Source of the DNA: Methanothermobacter sp.
GTDB taxonomy: Archaea; Methanobacteriota; Methanobacteria; Methanobacteriales; Methanothermobacteraceae
Assembly (NCBI RefSeq): GCF_030055435.1
Contig: NZ_JASFYG010000001.1
Location: 144,154-208,153 of the forward strand
Direction: 5' to 3'
DNA length: 64,000 nt
The position numbers were made by a program, and so were the translations under genes. Under the pieces are notes generated by a model, which was given only the letters and a program-made list of their open reading frames with translations, did no database searches and was not told where the DNA came from. Shown one piece after another: positions 47,266 through 63,770 of this stretch (positions are counted from its first letter, which is position 1; every line of letters begins with the position of its first letter).

Positions 47266-48558
47266 ATGAGACTGGTGTGCATGCTCACTGCATGCATGCT
47301 CCTCATGAATACAGCAGGATATGCAGTGGCAGCTGATGATACAGCCCTTGAGGTTGAAATGGAATCTGGACAGTCACTGGATCAGTGCTCCAGTTTGAAT
47401 GAAAGTTACAGTGAAGACATGGTGGACAGTGACGGCACATTGTATAGCGGGGCCGATCAGCTGAGTGCAGATAACACCGAGCCCCCTGTTTCAGTGGACA
47501 GAGAAGCGTATACACCTAACACCACGGATAAACCTGTAGTGGCAGATGCAGACATGGAAAACGTCAGTGGCAATTCAGGCAGCCATTTCCAGGCTGCAGG
47601 TGATAATTCAGGTGTGAACCATGCAAACATACTGAGCGCTGCAGTTAACCTCAGGAAGTACATTGAAACCTACGGGAAGCTGCCATCAACAGTATCAGTG
47701 GGAAGCCAGAAGCTGACGGTTGCACAGTTCTTTGACCTGATGCTCAGGGATCTACTTAAAACTGCAGGAAAATCAGCTTCACTCACAGTGCGTTCAGTGC
47801 AAGCCGCGCCGAACCCAGCAGGGTCAGCGACGGGGGAGCTTTCAAAGTCAGCCTACATCAAACTTGCAGAGAATGTGCTGAAGTTCATAAACAGTAACGG
47901 CAGGGCACCCAACTATGCGAGTTCCAGTATCGGCAGGATATCCGTTGATAACCTCATATACGCGGTTTCAAGGATCCTTGCATTCCATGCTGATAATGGC
48001 AGACTCCCCAACTATGTCACGGTGAAGAAGATCAGTGCTACATCAACAGCCCCATCATCATCACTTAAGAAGAGACCTGAGAATGACCCATACAGCGGTG
48101 AGAGCACCTCCCGGTACCTTTCGGCAACAGCAAACTGCCAGGTGAATGACACGGCAATCAGGTCACTGGCAGCCAGCCTAACCTCAGGTCTCACCAGTGC
48201 ATGGGATAAGGCAACAGCGATATTCAACTGGGTACGCGACAGCATCAGCTACAGCTTCTACTACAACACAAGGTACGGTGCCACTGGTACGCTAAAAACA
48301 AGGACAGGTAACTGTGTGGATCATTCACATCTCCTGGTTGCCCTCTTCAGGGCTGCAGGGCTTGCTGCCAGGTACGTCCATGGTACATGCACCTTCACCT
48401 CAGGTAACACCTATGGCCATGTCTGGGCCCAGGTACTTGTGGGTGACACCTGGTACGCTGCAGATGCCACGAGTTCAAGAAACAGCCTCGGCGCTGTATC
48501 AAGCTGGAACACTGCAACAGCAAAGATTAAGGGAATATACGCAAGTCTTCCCTTCTAG
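47266..48558 (+). CDS. Secreted pseudomurein-binding transglutaminase-like peptidase (PeiW/PeiP-like)
   Basis: 430 residues. The signal peptide MRLVCMLTACMLLMNTAGYA is followed by an acidic Ser/Asn-rich linker to about 115. Two or three pseudomurein-binding repeats follow (NILSAAVNLRKYIETYGKLP at about 120-160, IKLAENVLKFINSNGRAPNY and LIYAVSRILAFHADNGRLPN at about 195-255). The C-terminal transglutaminase-like domain (about 285-430) has Cys in RTGNCVDHSHLLVALFRAAG, His in GHVWAQVLVG and Asp in WYAADATSS, the triad of peptidase C71. Phage homologues PeiW and PeiP cut the isopeptide bonds of pseudomurein. A chromosomal copy is probably for growth or division, or prophage-derived; no phage genes are adjacent. 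Confidence 0.9.
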   Translation: MRLVCMLTACMLLMNTAGYAVAADDTALEVEMESGQSLDQCSSLNESYSEDMVDSDGTLYSGADQLSADNTEPPVSVDREAYTPNTTDKPVVADADMENVSGNSGSHFQAAGDNSGVNHANILSAAVNLRKYIETYGKLPSTVSVGSQKLTVAQFFDLMLRDLLKTAGKSASLTVRSVQAAPNPAGSATGELSKSAYIKLAENVLKFINSNGRAPNYASSSIGRISVDNLIYAVSRILAFHADNGRLPNYVTVKKISATSTAPSSSLKKRPENDPYSGESTSRYLSATANCQVNDTAIRSLAASLTSGLTSAWDKATAIFNWVRDSISYSFYYNTRYGATGTLKTRTGNCVDHSHLLVALFRAAGLAARYVHGTCTFTSGNTYGHVWAQVLVGDTWYAADATSSRNSLGAVSSWNTATAKIKGIYASLPF

Positions 48559-48590: not shown

Positions 48591-48630
48591 GTGATAATTG
48601 AGTCCTAAATTTAAGAATAATTGTTCTGAA

Positions 48631-48780
48631 GCATCAGTACCTTGCAATAAGCAGACTGTTCACAAAAAAAGATAATGGTTCTCAATAGCATCAGTACCTT
48701 GCAATAAGCAGACTGTTCACAAAAAAAGATAATGGTTCTCAATAGCATCAGTACCTTGCAATAAGCAGACTGTTCACTAT
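48631..48780. repeat. Three tandem 57-bp copies of the 3' end of the metal ATPase gene
   Basis: Units begin GCATCAGTACCTTGCAATAA at 48631, 48688 and 48745. The first two are identical over the full 57 bp; the third continues into the ATPase gene after TGTTCACT. Read leftward, each copy encodes VNSLLIARY-stop preceded by non-coding sequence, so the last ten codons and the TGA of the gene are present three times, with the two extra copies outside the gene. Confidence 0.95.
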
Positions 48781-55034: not shown

Positions 55035-56373
55035 CGTTATCATCCTCCAAGTTAAGTTTCACTGCAGTGACAGGGCATATGTCCTGGCATTCACCGCAGA
55101 GTATGCAGGTGTCATCATCAACCTCCACTTCACCATCCAGTGCCATGGCATCAACGGGGCAGTGGTTGACGCAGACGCCGCACCTCTGGCAGATGACATG
55201 ATCCACCTCCACTGAACCGCTTCTTGGTCCCCTTAGGATTCTGCGCTCAAGGTATATCCTGCCATCGGATGCCCTGAAGCCCTCCTCTGTTATTTCAATG
55301 GCGTCAACAGGACAGACCCCACTGCAGCGACCGCAGAAGACGCATCCATCCTTTATCTCAACAGGGGCTGGTGTTACAGGTTCTATAACTCCAACCGGGC
55401 ACTCATCGATACATAGTCCGCACCCGATGCACCTATCCTCAAGTACCCTTATACTTCTCTTTGGCTTTGTGAAGTCCACTATATGGTTGAGTTCAAGGAT
55501 TTCAAGGTCCGAGTCGACGAGTTCCTCTATTCCGTCCCTTATCTCATCTGTGACATCCACCCTGAATTGGGGTTCATCCCTGGTGAACCTCCGCTTCACG
55601 CTCCTCAGAACCGAGTCTATCCTGCCAAGGTTCCTTACGAGTTTCTCTGATTCCCTCTCAAGGATTTCCCCTGCTATCTCCATGTTATTGAGTTTTGAGA
55701 AGTTCTCGTAGGCCCTCTTTCTGGATGAGTACTTTATGGCTGCTGATGGGCAGACATCCATGCACTCCTCGCACCTTGCACAGTATGATGGGTCTATGTA
55801 GGGGAGCCTGTTGATCTTACCCACCTTTATGGCGCCCCTGGATGGGCAGACCCTGGTGCAGGTCATGCAGCCTATGCAGTCCCTCTGGTTAACCACAACG
55901 GCCTTTCCACCCACCACGGATCGTGGCAGGATTTCACCGTATTTTATGGCCTCTGTGGGGCATGCCCTTGCACAGTAGCCGCACCTGACACATTTATCCT
56001 CATCTATCTCACTGTGAACACCGGTCTCCCCTGATGATGCAAGGTGTATTGCCCCTGTCCTGCAGGCAGATACACAGGCACCGCAGCCACGGCAGATCCT
56101 GGGGTTTATAACAGGGACGTTCTCCCTTATGGGCTCCCCAAGGATTGTCTTCATCTTTATGGCGTCGTAGGGGCAGGCCTCCCTGCAGAGGACGCAGCCG
56201 AAGCAGCGGTCATCGATTTCAACCTCCCCTGTTTCCGGGTCCATGTGCACGGCATCCACAGGGCATGCATTCAGGCAGGGTTTATCAGGGCAACTCCTGC
56301 ATTTCTCATGGTCGATTTCATAGTCAACGTCAACTTCCCTGAGGGGCTTTACGGGTTTTGCTGCAGCTGGAAT
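55027..56373 (-). CDS. ehaQ: Ten-cluster polyferredoxin, EhaQ, with non-AUG or frameshifted start
   Basis: Nine typical CxxCxxCxxxCP motifs lie downstream of GTG 56259 (for example [48 protein letters not shown]). A tenth cluster-type set, [19 protein letters not shown], lies in frame upstream, as does a Pro/Ala-rich lead ([19 protein letters not shown]). The eha operon is known to encode a 10x[4Fe-4S] polyferredoxin, so this upstream part is real. No ATG, GTG or TTG exists in that frame between the TGA at 56388 and 56259. The best candidate is ATT 56373, eight bases after GAGGAG. The alternative is a one-base deletion after ATG 56381. The 5' end lies in a tandem duplication. Confidence 0.85.
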
Positions 56374-56465
56374 GTTATCATCTCCTCATCACTTTACAGG
56401 AAGCGCCGCAACTTATTATGATCCTAATGTTATCATCTCCTCATCACTTTACAGGAAGCGCCGCC
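56372..56465. repeat. 55-bp tandem duplication over the ehaP/ehaQ junction
   Basis: The sequence beginning ATGTTATCATCTCCTCATCA recurs at 56372 and 56427 (period 55); 38 bp are identical before divergence. Read leftward, each copy carries the last codons of ehaP (AALPVK-stop) and GAGGAGATGATAACATT, the ehaQ ribosome site and start region. The duplication therefore lengthened the ehaP/ehaQ spacer and produced an extra copy of the ehaQ start context. Confidence 0.95.
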
Positions 56466-57489: not shown

Positions 57490-58602
57490 TTAGAGGAGTA
57501 TCTCCCTCTTTCCCCCATCTTCGTCCAGGACCACGGCCCTCTCTGCACATGCTATGCATGGGTCTGCGCTGGCATAGGTTGCAACGGCATCTGCAACGGT
57601 TGCAACGTCCCGTAGCATGTACTTTGCACAGGCATCGATGTTCATGATGCTCGGGGTCCTTATGGAGATGTTCTTTATGAGGTTGCCGTTGGTCTCAATC
57701 ATGTAGGCCACCTCGCCACGGGGTGCCTCGTTTCTCCACTCCCCGTAGCCGGCCTTCACATCCACCTTCCTCCTCACAGGGCCGGAGGGGATATTGTCTA
57801 TCACCTGCTTTATGAGGTCAATTGAGACCCTTATCTCATCGAAGCGGTTCATGACCCTTGCAAAGTTGTCCCCCTCATCCCTCCAGATTGTCCTGAAGTC
57901 CAGGTGGTCCCGGTAGGTGGGGTGGTCCTCCCTGAAGTCATACCTTATACCTGAGGCCCTTCCTATGGGTCCCACTGCACGGGCCTTCTCTGCCTCCTCC
58001 TGGCTCATGTAACCCACATCCCTTGACCTGAGCCCTATGAGTGGCCCGTGTTCGAACATTTCAACGTAACGGTCGAATTCCCTTTCAAGGTCCACTATGA
58101 TCTCCCTTATCCTTGAGAGGTGATCCTCTGAGGCGTCCATCCTCACACCCCCCACAACGTTCCAGCCCATGTTGACACGGTTACCTGTGAGTAACTCGAT
58201 GGCATCCATTACAGGCTCCCTCAGGGCCAGCATGTACATGAACATGGTCTCATGGTCAAGGGCCTTGAAGTAGGTTGAATTTGCGATGAGGTGACTCTGT
58301 ATCCTGTCAAGTTCATTCGTCAGGGCGCGGAGGAACTGGGCCCTTGGAGGGGCCTCCACCTCAGAGATGGCCTCGAAAGCCTCTGCAAAGGTCTGTGTGT
58401 GTATATATGAGCATATCCCGCAGACCCGCTCGGAGAGGTATATGGCCTTCTGCCAGGTCTTGTTCCTCATGACCCTCTCTATTCCCCTGTGAACGTATCC
58501 GTACTCTATCTCGGCCTTAAGAACCTTCTCACCCCTTGTCTTCACCTTGAGCCTTATTGGCTCCTTGTAGCCGGGGTGCATTGGTCCAAGTGGCAGTATC
58601 AT
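57490..58602 (-). CDS. ehaO: [NiFe]-hydrogenase large subunit, EhaO
   Basis: 370 residues. Nickel-binding motifs [11 protein letters not shown] near the N terminus (Cys61 and Cys64) and [12 protein letters not shown] near the C terminus (Cys349 and Cys352). Other conserved pieces of the group 4/complex I 49-kDa family are present: [28 protein letters not shown] and [12 protein letters not shown]. It activates H2. After the DPCxxC motif only some 18 residues remain, so a C-terminal peptide for maturation protease, if any, is short. The ATG overlaps the ehaN stop (ATGA). Confidence 0.95.
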
Positions 58603-59045
58603 CTCTTCCTCCCCCTCTCTGCTATTGCATCCGGTGCCACCGATAGTATGGCCTCAAGTATCTCAGATGGTCTTGGAGGGCAACCAGGAACCTCGGCGTC
58701 CACCGGTATGAAGTCAGAGACCGGCGCATAGACGCTCCCGCCCTCCTGGTTGAATACGTCCCCTGAGATGGGGCAGTTGCCCAGGGCCACCACTATCTTT
58801 GGCTCAGGTGCCTTGCTGTATATCCTCTGAAGCTTCTCCCTCCACTGCTCTGTAACGGCACCGGTCACCAGTATCACATCAGCCTCCCTGGGGTTCTGGT
58901 GGACGTATATACCGTACTGTTCAAGGTCATATCTGGGTGAGAGGAGTGCAAGGACCTCTATGTCGCAGCCATTGCACCCCCCTGTGTTCACAAGACACAC
59001 ATGGATTGATGTTTTCCTCAGAATACTTTTAAGGGCATCCAACAT
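58599..59045 (-). CDS. ehaN: [NiFe]-hydrogenase small subunit, EhaN
   Basis: 148 residues, NuoB-like. The proximal [4Fe-4S] cluster ligands are Cys24 and Cys27 in [11 protein letters not shown], the Cys of [10 protein letters not shown] and the Cys of [12 protein letters not shown]. It passes electrons from EhaO to the polyferredoxins. Its start MLDALKS is preceded by GAGGTAAAGAA. This start region is copied repeatedly in the 346-bp spacer upstream. Coupled to ehaO by ATGA overlap. Confidence 0.95.
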
Positions 59046-59391
59046 TTCTTTACCTCTACATCTACTCTTTTATGATCACGTTAATCTTAAGGGCATCCAT
59101 CACTTCTTTACCTCTACATCTACTCTTTTATGATCACGTTAATCTTAAGGGCATCCAGCACTTCTTTACCTCTACATCTACTCTTTTATGATCACGTTAA
59201 TCTTAAGGGCATCCAGCACTTCTTTACCTCTACATCTACTCTTTTATGATCACGTTAATCTTAAGGGCATCCAGCACTTCTAACTCTTCTATGATCACAT
59301 TAATCATTAAGGGCATCCAGCACTTCTAACTCTTCTATGATCACATTAATCATTAAGGGCATCCAGCACTTCTAACTCTTCTATGATCATG
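59034..59391. repeat. Seven-copy tandem repeat of the ehaM/ehaN junction
   Basis: The core GGCATCC recurs at 59034, 59092, 59150, 59208, 59266, 59312 and 59358: spacings 58, 58, 58, 58, 46, 46. The rightmost copy adjoins the ehaM stop and the leftmost includes the ehaN start. Read leftward, the 58-bp unit contains an ehaM-like GATTAA, AGAGGTAAAG (the ehaN ribosome site) and GTGCTGGATGCCCTTAA, a near copy of the ehaN first codons. The 46-bp type lacks a strong ribosome site. The 346-bp spacer holds nothing else. Confidence 0.95.
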
Positions 59392-59778
59392 TTAATCTTC
59401 AGCTCGGAGTATCTCATGGAGCCTCCTCTTCCCCTCGGCAAGGGCCTCCTGGTATTCGGTTCCCGCAAGGATCATCTCGGTTATCTCATCCTTGAGTGTT
59501 TCCGCATCTTCAGCATCCACGATCTCCATAACATCCACGAGCCAGCAGAGCTGGAGGTCACTGTGCAGCCTCTCCTTTATGCACCTTGGCCTTGCAGACT
59601 CGAATCTGGGGTGGAGGGCCTCAAGGCTGGACATGTCCAGTTTATCCATGAGTATCTCCTGGAACTCCTCCAGGTCAATTTCAAGTTCCCTGGAGAGTGG
59701 TTTCACAACATCCTCCTGCCACCGGTAACTTTCAATTATCCTCCTCTTCATGATCCTCATGAGTTCTCCTTCATCCAT
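59392..59778 (-). CDS. ehaM: EhaM, hydrophilic subunit of energy-converting hydrogenase A
   Basis: 128 residues, soluble and highly helical and acidic (GELMRIMKRRIIESYRWQED, LEIDLEEFQEILMDKLDM), ending EALAEGKRRLHEILRAED. It has no cofactor motif. GGTGGTAGTT precedes ATG 59778. Identification is by position between the membrane subunits L, K and the small subunit N. It ends at TAA 59394-59392, after which the junction repeat begins. Confidence 0.8.
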   Translation of the reverse strand: MDEGELMRIMKRRIIESYRWQEDVVKPLSRELEIDLEEFQEILMDKLDMSSLEALHPRFESARPRCIKERLHSDLQLCWLVDVMEIVDAEDAETLKDEITEMILAGTEYQEALAEGKRRLHEILRAED

Positions 59779-59780
59779 AA

Positions 59781-60098
59781 CTACCACCCCGGGGTCCCGG
59801 CCAGGAGCCATATTATGAATGCCGCCGCAGCCCCAGTGACCGTCTCGTATCTGCCATACCCTGGCCTCATACCGGCAACCAGGGCCACCATGAAGAACCC
59901 CGCTGTCCTTAAAATGGGGGTGAAGGGTGTCAGGGCCGCATTAACAAGCACAGCCCACCCCATGAGGGCCACTATAAGTGCCAGTGGGTCTATTTTTTCC
60001 TTCACAAATGGCTCCCTGTACTTCCTGTAACTTAAGAGTAAACCGATCACCGAGCCAGCGATAAAGGAAACCGTGTATACCAGGTACATTTCATACAA
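59781..60098 (-). CDS. ehaL: EhaL, small integral membrane subunit
   Basis: About 105 residues with three hydrophobic helices (about 6-26, 40-60, 68-103 including a Gly/Ala-rich last helix). It lies between ehaK and ehaM. A TTG at 60098, preceded by GGTGATAACA, is the likely start; a GTG at 60107 forms part of that site and an ATG at 60089 is also possible. The stop is two bases before the ehaM start. Confidence 0.8.
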   Translation of the reverse strand: MYEMYLVYTVSFIAGSVIGLLLSYRKYREPFVKEKIDPLALIVALMGWAVLVNAALTPFTPILRTAGFFMVALVAGMRPGYGRYETVTGAAAAFIIWLLAGTPGW

Positions 60099-63582: not shown

Positions 63583-63615
63583 GTTTCCCACCTCTCACAT
63601 CCAGTAAGTGAATAT

Positions 63616-63770
63616 CAGACAAGATCCTCACCCCTCGCTACCCTCACATCGGAGTAAACATGAACATCAGACAAGATCCTCACCCCTCGCTACCCTCACA
63701 TCGGAGTAAACATGAACATCAGACAAGATCCTCACCCCTCGCTACCCTCACATCATTGATTCTCATAACA
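63616..63770. repeat. 52-bp tandem repeat of the ehaD 3' end
   Basis: The sequence CAGACAAGATCCTCACCCCT starts at 63616, 63668 and 63720 (period 52), three copies. The third is the real end of ehaD: leftward it reads DVRVARGEDLV-stop. Each extra copy in the ehaD/ehaE spacer repeats those codons and the TGA, then a short linker with GTTTACTCC. Confidence 0.95.

Follow-up and report, generated by a model that had tools for sequence, protein, structure and literature searches.

Between ehaM and ehaN, in the 64,000-nt stretch of a Methanothermobacter genome analysed here (the window), the start region of ehaN is repeated several times in tandem. Is such an array a device for controlling the synthesis of the hydrogenase small subunit, or is it the outcome of mutation that the operon merely tolerates? 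The preliminary description of this locus offered three possibilities: that the copies act as decoy initiation sites and tune EhaN/EhaO translation, that they form a slippage-based phase-variation switch, or that they are a neutral by-product. The last of these is the best supported of the three, on account of a wider class of similar duplications, of spacers that differ between species by whole units, and of the patchy occurrence of the array in the genus. The ehaM/N array appears to be an instance of ~55-base duplication that occurs at gene boundaries throughout the genus, and not a purpose-built switch.

Anatomy of the ehaM–ehaN junction

The eha gene names are backed by Pfam: EhaL and DUF1959 (at the position of ehaM) are matched upstream of the array, and downstream of it the two hydrogenase subunits, small and large, match families of the NuoB/NuoD type. 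In M. marburgensis, ehaA-T form a single transcription unit (PMC3087415). The features of the junction are as follows.

58599..59045, minus strand: ehaN, hydrogenase small subunit, with its own ATG and ribosome site intact
59029..59397, minus strand: whole tandem array (58-bp plus 46-bp units), reaching from the final ehaM codons to codon six of ehaN
59029..59281, minus strand: 58-bp units (TRF), each with sequence proximal to the ehaM stop, spacer, the AGAGGTAAAG ribosome site and ehaN-like codons
59238..59397, minus strand: 46-bp units (TRF), 12 bp shorter, with the ribosome site degraded to GAGTTAGAA
59062..59103, minus strand: decoy micro-ORF, strong ribosome site
59120..59161, minus strand: decoy micro-ORF, strong ribosome site
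59178..59219, minus strand: decoy micro-ORF, strong ribosome site
59236..59277, minus strand: decoy micro-ORF, weak ribosome site
59300..59323, minus strand: decoy micro-ORF MLDALND, weak ribosome site
59346..59369, minus strand: decoy micro-ORF MLDALND, weak ribosome site
59392..59811, minus strand: ehaM (DUF1959; Pfam)

The array occupies the 346-nt spacer between the two genes, and TRF resolves it into 4.4 copies of a 58-bp period (98% matches) and 3.5 copies of a 46-bp period (95% matches). Three 0.83 Mb simulations under a third-order Markov model of the same composition produced no near-perfect array with a period of at least 30. Each unit duplicates the gene junction itself, from the final ehaM codons through codon six of ehaN, and the copies can be told apart at diagnostic positions (GTGATGG at 59103; 46- versus 58-bp units). 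The coding strand shows seven ehaN-like starts, at successive spacings of 46, 46, 58, 58, 58 and 58, so that the earlier count of seven units, five at 58 and two at 46, holds when ehaN itself is taken as one of them. The six others, which we call decoys, start at 59369, 59323, 59277, 59219, 59161 and 59103, in each case with GTG; ehaN starts with ATG, at 59045.

It had been claimed that every 58-bp unit carries the ribosome site of ehaN. This is true of the decoys at 59219, 59161 and 59103, which have that site in common (anti-SD duplex, -7.2 kcal/mol), but not of the decoy at 59277, where a 13-codon frame follows a weak site (-2.4 kcal/mol). Both 46-bp starts are similarly weak, in agreement with the earlier account, and the strong site is lost in three of the six decoys altogether. 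Judging by these sites, initiation could occur at the three decoys of full strength. The micro-ORF peptides are those given previously, including the seven-codon frames of the 46-bp units: MLDALND occurs twice, and the peptides of the 13-codon frames come in two versions, one present three times and the other once. Each micro-ORF stop is separated from the next start by a gap of 16 or 22 nt.

Several other identities of the array were considered and rejected. The array does not belong to a dispersed or MIRU-like repeat family: its matches in the genome are the local array itself, and the others are 17–19 bp long with E of at least 0.04. Nor is it a structured RNA or riboswitch, since Rfam gives no match at or above the gathering score (the best scores 24.6 against 45, E 0.58); the minimum free energy of the array RNA, -66.8 as against -67.0 for shuffled sequences, indicates no extra structure. 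An N-terminally extended EhaN is precluded by an in-frame TAA upstream of the ATG, and a phage origin was discarded upon zero matches in a phage collection.

The junction in eight congeneric genomes

Our comparison set comprises eight congeneric genomes, one per species, including the present one (G000). The ribosome site and ATG of ehaN are intact in all eight. The array is absent from four of them (G002, G003, G005 and G006), in which the ehaM/N spacer is 34 nt. Two units are present in each of G001 and G004, with spacers of 82 and 89 nt respectively; G007 has an array interrupted by an N gap, in a spacer of about 195 nt; and seven units occur in G000 only. In a tree of ehaN-O DNA the four genomes with an array group together, G000 and G001 being sisters. 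The array of G001 consists of one 46-type and one 58-type unit, in this order, and this two-unit arrangement was probably the starting state of the seven-unit array. The 46-type unit has kept the strong ribosome site in G001 and has lost it in G000. In G004 and in G007, the copies are closer to their own ehaN-proximal copy than to the units of other species; such species-specific diagnostic bases would point either to a repeated origin of the duplication or to copies that have been homogenised.

The micro-ORF peptides differ as well, reading MLDALKISVIIKE in G001, MLDALKLKIDH in G004 and MLDALKSLT in G007. Because the frames diverge between species after MLDALK, that is, beyond the copied ehaN codons, we reject the idea of a conserved micropeptide. 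Decaying ribosome sites and differing peptides are, to all appearances, signs of drift, and not of initiation sites that are being maintained.

The units are thus near-identical, arranged head to tail and longer than about 10 bp, and their number differs by whole units among related genomes, in this set between species only. The ehaM/N array is a young, lineage-specific minisatellite, and the whole-unit differences are what a slippage-prone array would predict.

A genus-wide class of short tandem duplications

Arrays of the same class are found elsewhere in the window.

48630..48777, minus strand: perfect array, 57 bp x2.6 (TRF), 3' end of the gene for a heavy-metal P-type ATPase
about 56371..56465, minus strand: partial array, 55 bp x1.7, at the ehaP/Q junction
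63609..63754, minus strand: array, 52 bp x2.8, at the ehaB/C junction (TRF)

Spacers at these eha junctions form ladders between species. Those of ehaB/C climb in 52-bp steps, from 23 nt (G004) through 75 (G007) and 127 (G000) to 179 nt (G001). Those of ehaP/Q climb in 55-bp steps (129, 184, 239), with one 55-bp unit in five congeners, two here and three in G001. At ehaC/D, a 47-bp duplication in G002 has converted a 4-nt overlap (-4) into a 43-nt spacer.

Some further loci may be recorded here. At ehaD/E, where the genes overlap by 4 nt (-4), G006 has an insertion (spacer 73; L155:12400-12520) in which the start region of ehaE recurs as a degenerate copy, and G002 a lesser one (spacer 28). 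The place of the 48630–48777 array at the end of the P-type ATPase gene is occupied in G001 by 432 bp with an N gap. At a gene end in G004 (L169:9722-10207), a 49-bp unit is perfectly repeated 9.9 times; G000 has 45 bp at the orthologous position. The gene at 47266–48558 encodes pseudomurein-binding repeats and a transglutaminase-like domain; its orthologues in G003, G004 and G006 have near-identical in-frame repeats of 435–456 bp, and the copy here is shorter.

We surveyed the class in 2.4 Mb of stretches from seven genomes, centred on the eha region. A lag scan independent of TRF, over lags of 30–400 bp, yields 58 tandem duplications, 55 of which have lags of 40–69 bp. The median lag is 55 and the quartiles are 50 and 60; there are zero duplications at lags of 30–39 and only three above 69. 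TRF reports 42 near-perfect rows in the same sample, with periods of 40–121 bp. Thirty-six of these are not contained in an ORF, the noncoding share of the sampled DNA being 8.8%. The arrays sit between genes of every relative orientation (co-directional, divergent, convergent), and the 42 of them reach the starts of 13 genes and the stops of 24. ORFs were called for this placement by a simple greedy rule. Because this rule assigned ehaM wrongly, the two array rows of the window were tallied as divergent; they are really co-directional. About nine of the 42 rows fall at eha junctions, in roughly 4% of the sampled DNA, a count that includes non-independent orthologous arrays and comes from eha-centred samples; array density at these junctions is perhaps above the genome average. 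In small samples, lags are more widely spread in other genera of the order, and arrays of the same class are absent from G009, of another family of the order, and from Methanomicrobiales loci.

The samples of G007 and G001 contain nine N-runs, each of which abuts a tandem repeat of the ~55-bp class, and drafts must therefore under-count copies. One N-run (L208:19230-19327) lies within the ehaM/N array of G007, in whose draft the N-runs coincide with tandem repeats of ~46–71 bp.

In most recent two-copy arrays the exact self-match equals the period to within -5 to +5 bases, so that there is little or no microhomology at the breakpoints when an array is born. It is this narrow unit length of 40–69 bp, and not decoy regulation, that is the part of the problem worth following. 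One reading, which we put forward tentatively and hold to be somewhat short of probable, is that genomes of the Methanothermobacter type carry a mutational process with a molecular ruler, giving duplications of ~55 bp (40–69) with almost no breakpoint homology, recurrently at the same junctions. As the ruler one may think of a fixed-length intermediate of replication or repair, such as an unprocessed Okazaki flap or an opposite pair of nicks, or else of the ~60-bp footprint of an archaeal histone tetramer. FEN1 (PF00867) and histones (PF00808) are found in all eight congeners, and for that reason their presence does not separate genomes with the ehaM/N array from those without it. Fragments of 55–65 bp measured in M. 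thermautotrophicus are consistent with the footprint idea, which is weakened by the depletion of nucleosomes from intergenic regions in T. kodakarensis (PMC3691661). Our literature search returned no description of so narrow a unit length, and nothing pertinent on flap-related duplications or on microhomology in connection with archaeal tandem repeats.

Origin of the array, rival explanations and known systems

Quite probably, the ehaM/N array is a tolerated by-product of the ~55-bp tandem-duplication process, in the form of a lineage-specific minisatellite. A process acting throughout the genus would tandemly duplicate about 40–69 bp, and its products would persist mostly at gene junctions, where they would do little harm. 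Here the ehaM-ehaN junction, with the ehaM stop, the spacer, the ribosome site and the first ehaN codons, would have been duplicated in tandem, and later growth would have been by expansion, unit by unit. Because stop, ribosome site and start all lie within the duplicated segment, each added unit would resemble a decoy start with a micro-ORF, and selection would not be needed. We infer that the array arose by mutation and is tolerated, and that its effect on EhaN is at most small, since ribosomes most likely begin EhaN at its own ATG, whose ribosome site is intact. If arrays were simply purged from coding sequence, that could by itself account for their position at junctions, and this location is therefore neutral with respect to function.

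The alternative that ribosomes initiate at the decoy GTGs, with unit number setting EhaN/EhaO output relative to EhaA-M, would draw on the exact ehaN ribosome site in three decoys that open short frames, and on the differences in unit number between species. Comparison lends it no support: the array is missing from half of the genus, the peptides are unlike among species, and upstream ribosome sites are decaying, with the strong site gone from three of six decoys and ATG replaced by GTG in every one. The class, moreover, is not bound to start sites, given that its arrays reach more gene stops than starts and occur also at convergent and divergent gene ends. We consider such tuning unlikely. 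Alternatively, ribosomes leaving ehaM might reinitiate along the micro-ORFs, thereby covering the spacer and shielding ehaN from polarity, as has been put forward for mycobacterial MIRUs; the stop-to-start gaps are short in place of an empty 346-nt spacer, and MIRU ORFs are thought to reduce the cost of insertion through coupling (PMC12548453). But in Haloferax volcanii reinitiation reaches only a fraction at 13–14 nt and is abolished at 22–23 nt (PMC10666635), so that the 16–22 nt gaps fall where it is largely or wholly lost, and even the single-copy 34-nt spacer is already outside its range; MIRUs rely on a -4 nt overlap. A relay of this kind is quite improbable.

A slippage-based phase-variation switch of EhaN would make use of near-identical tandem units that are able to gain and lose copies, and species do differ by whole units. 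In a phase-variable switch, however, copy number alters the downstream frame or start, whereas here the last unit keeps the ribosome site and ATG of ehaN, in an unchanged frame, at any copy number, and there is consequently no on/off state. An off state would in any case probably be lethal, because eha could not be deleted in Methanococcus maripaludis (PMC3087415). Thus, a switch is very unlikely. It might also be supposed that short-read assembly created the copy number, or even the whole array, for the genome is a draft of 10 contigs and the association of N-runs with such repeats makes draft copy counts unreliable. Against this, G001, G004 and G007 each have the array in a sequence version of their own, its copies are distinguishable, and arrays of the class are present in the single-contig genomes G003 and G006 and the two-contig genomes G004 and G002; an artefact is very improbable.

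As a tolerated minisatellite inside an essential operon, the locus carries a caution, namely that a gene junction copied in tandem mimics a set of purpose-made decoy starts. The ~55-bp class provides fast-evolving typing markers for these methanogens and accounts for assembly gaps in drafts, and its narrow unit length and scant breakpoint homology make it a handle on short tandem duplication in archaea.

The array resembles the bacterial VNTR loci employed for strain typing, in that relatives differ by whole units, here between species. MIRUs, the interspersed repetitive units of mycobacteria, are comparable to it in unit size and in copy-number variation. Like the array, they are short repeats between co-directional genes with small ORFs at the junction (PMC12548453). 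They constitute one dispersed and apparently mobile family that inserts at start codons, coupled by a -4 nt overlap; the ehaM/N unit, by contrast, is a local junction copy, not dispersed, and no micro-ORF overlaps the next start by 4 nt, the gaps being +16 to +22 nt. MIRUs are the closest functional analogue, from which dispersal and ORF overlap set the array apart. Many unrelated long-unit satellites are scattered over the genome of Methanobrevibacter ruminantium, and the available part of that account reports no 40–69 bp band, junction location or between-species ladders (PMC6749651). Although they belong to another genus, these satellites, as described there, are like the arrays considered here: unrelated arrays in a member of the Methanobacteriales, each with its own sequence, with units longer than 30 bp and at least half of them noncoding (PMC6749651).
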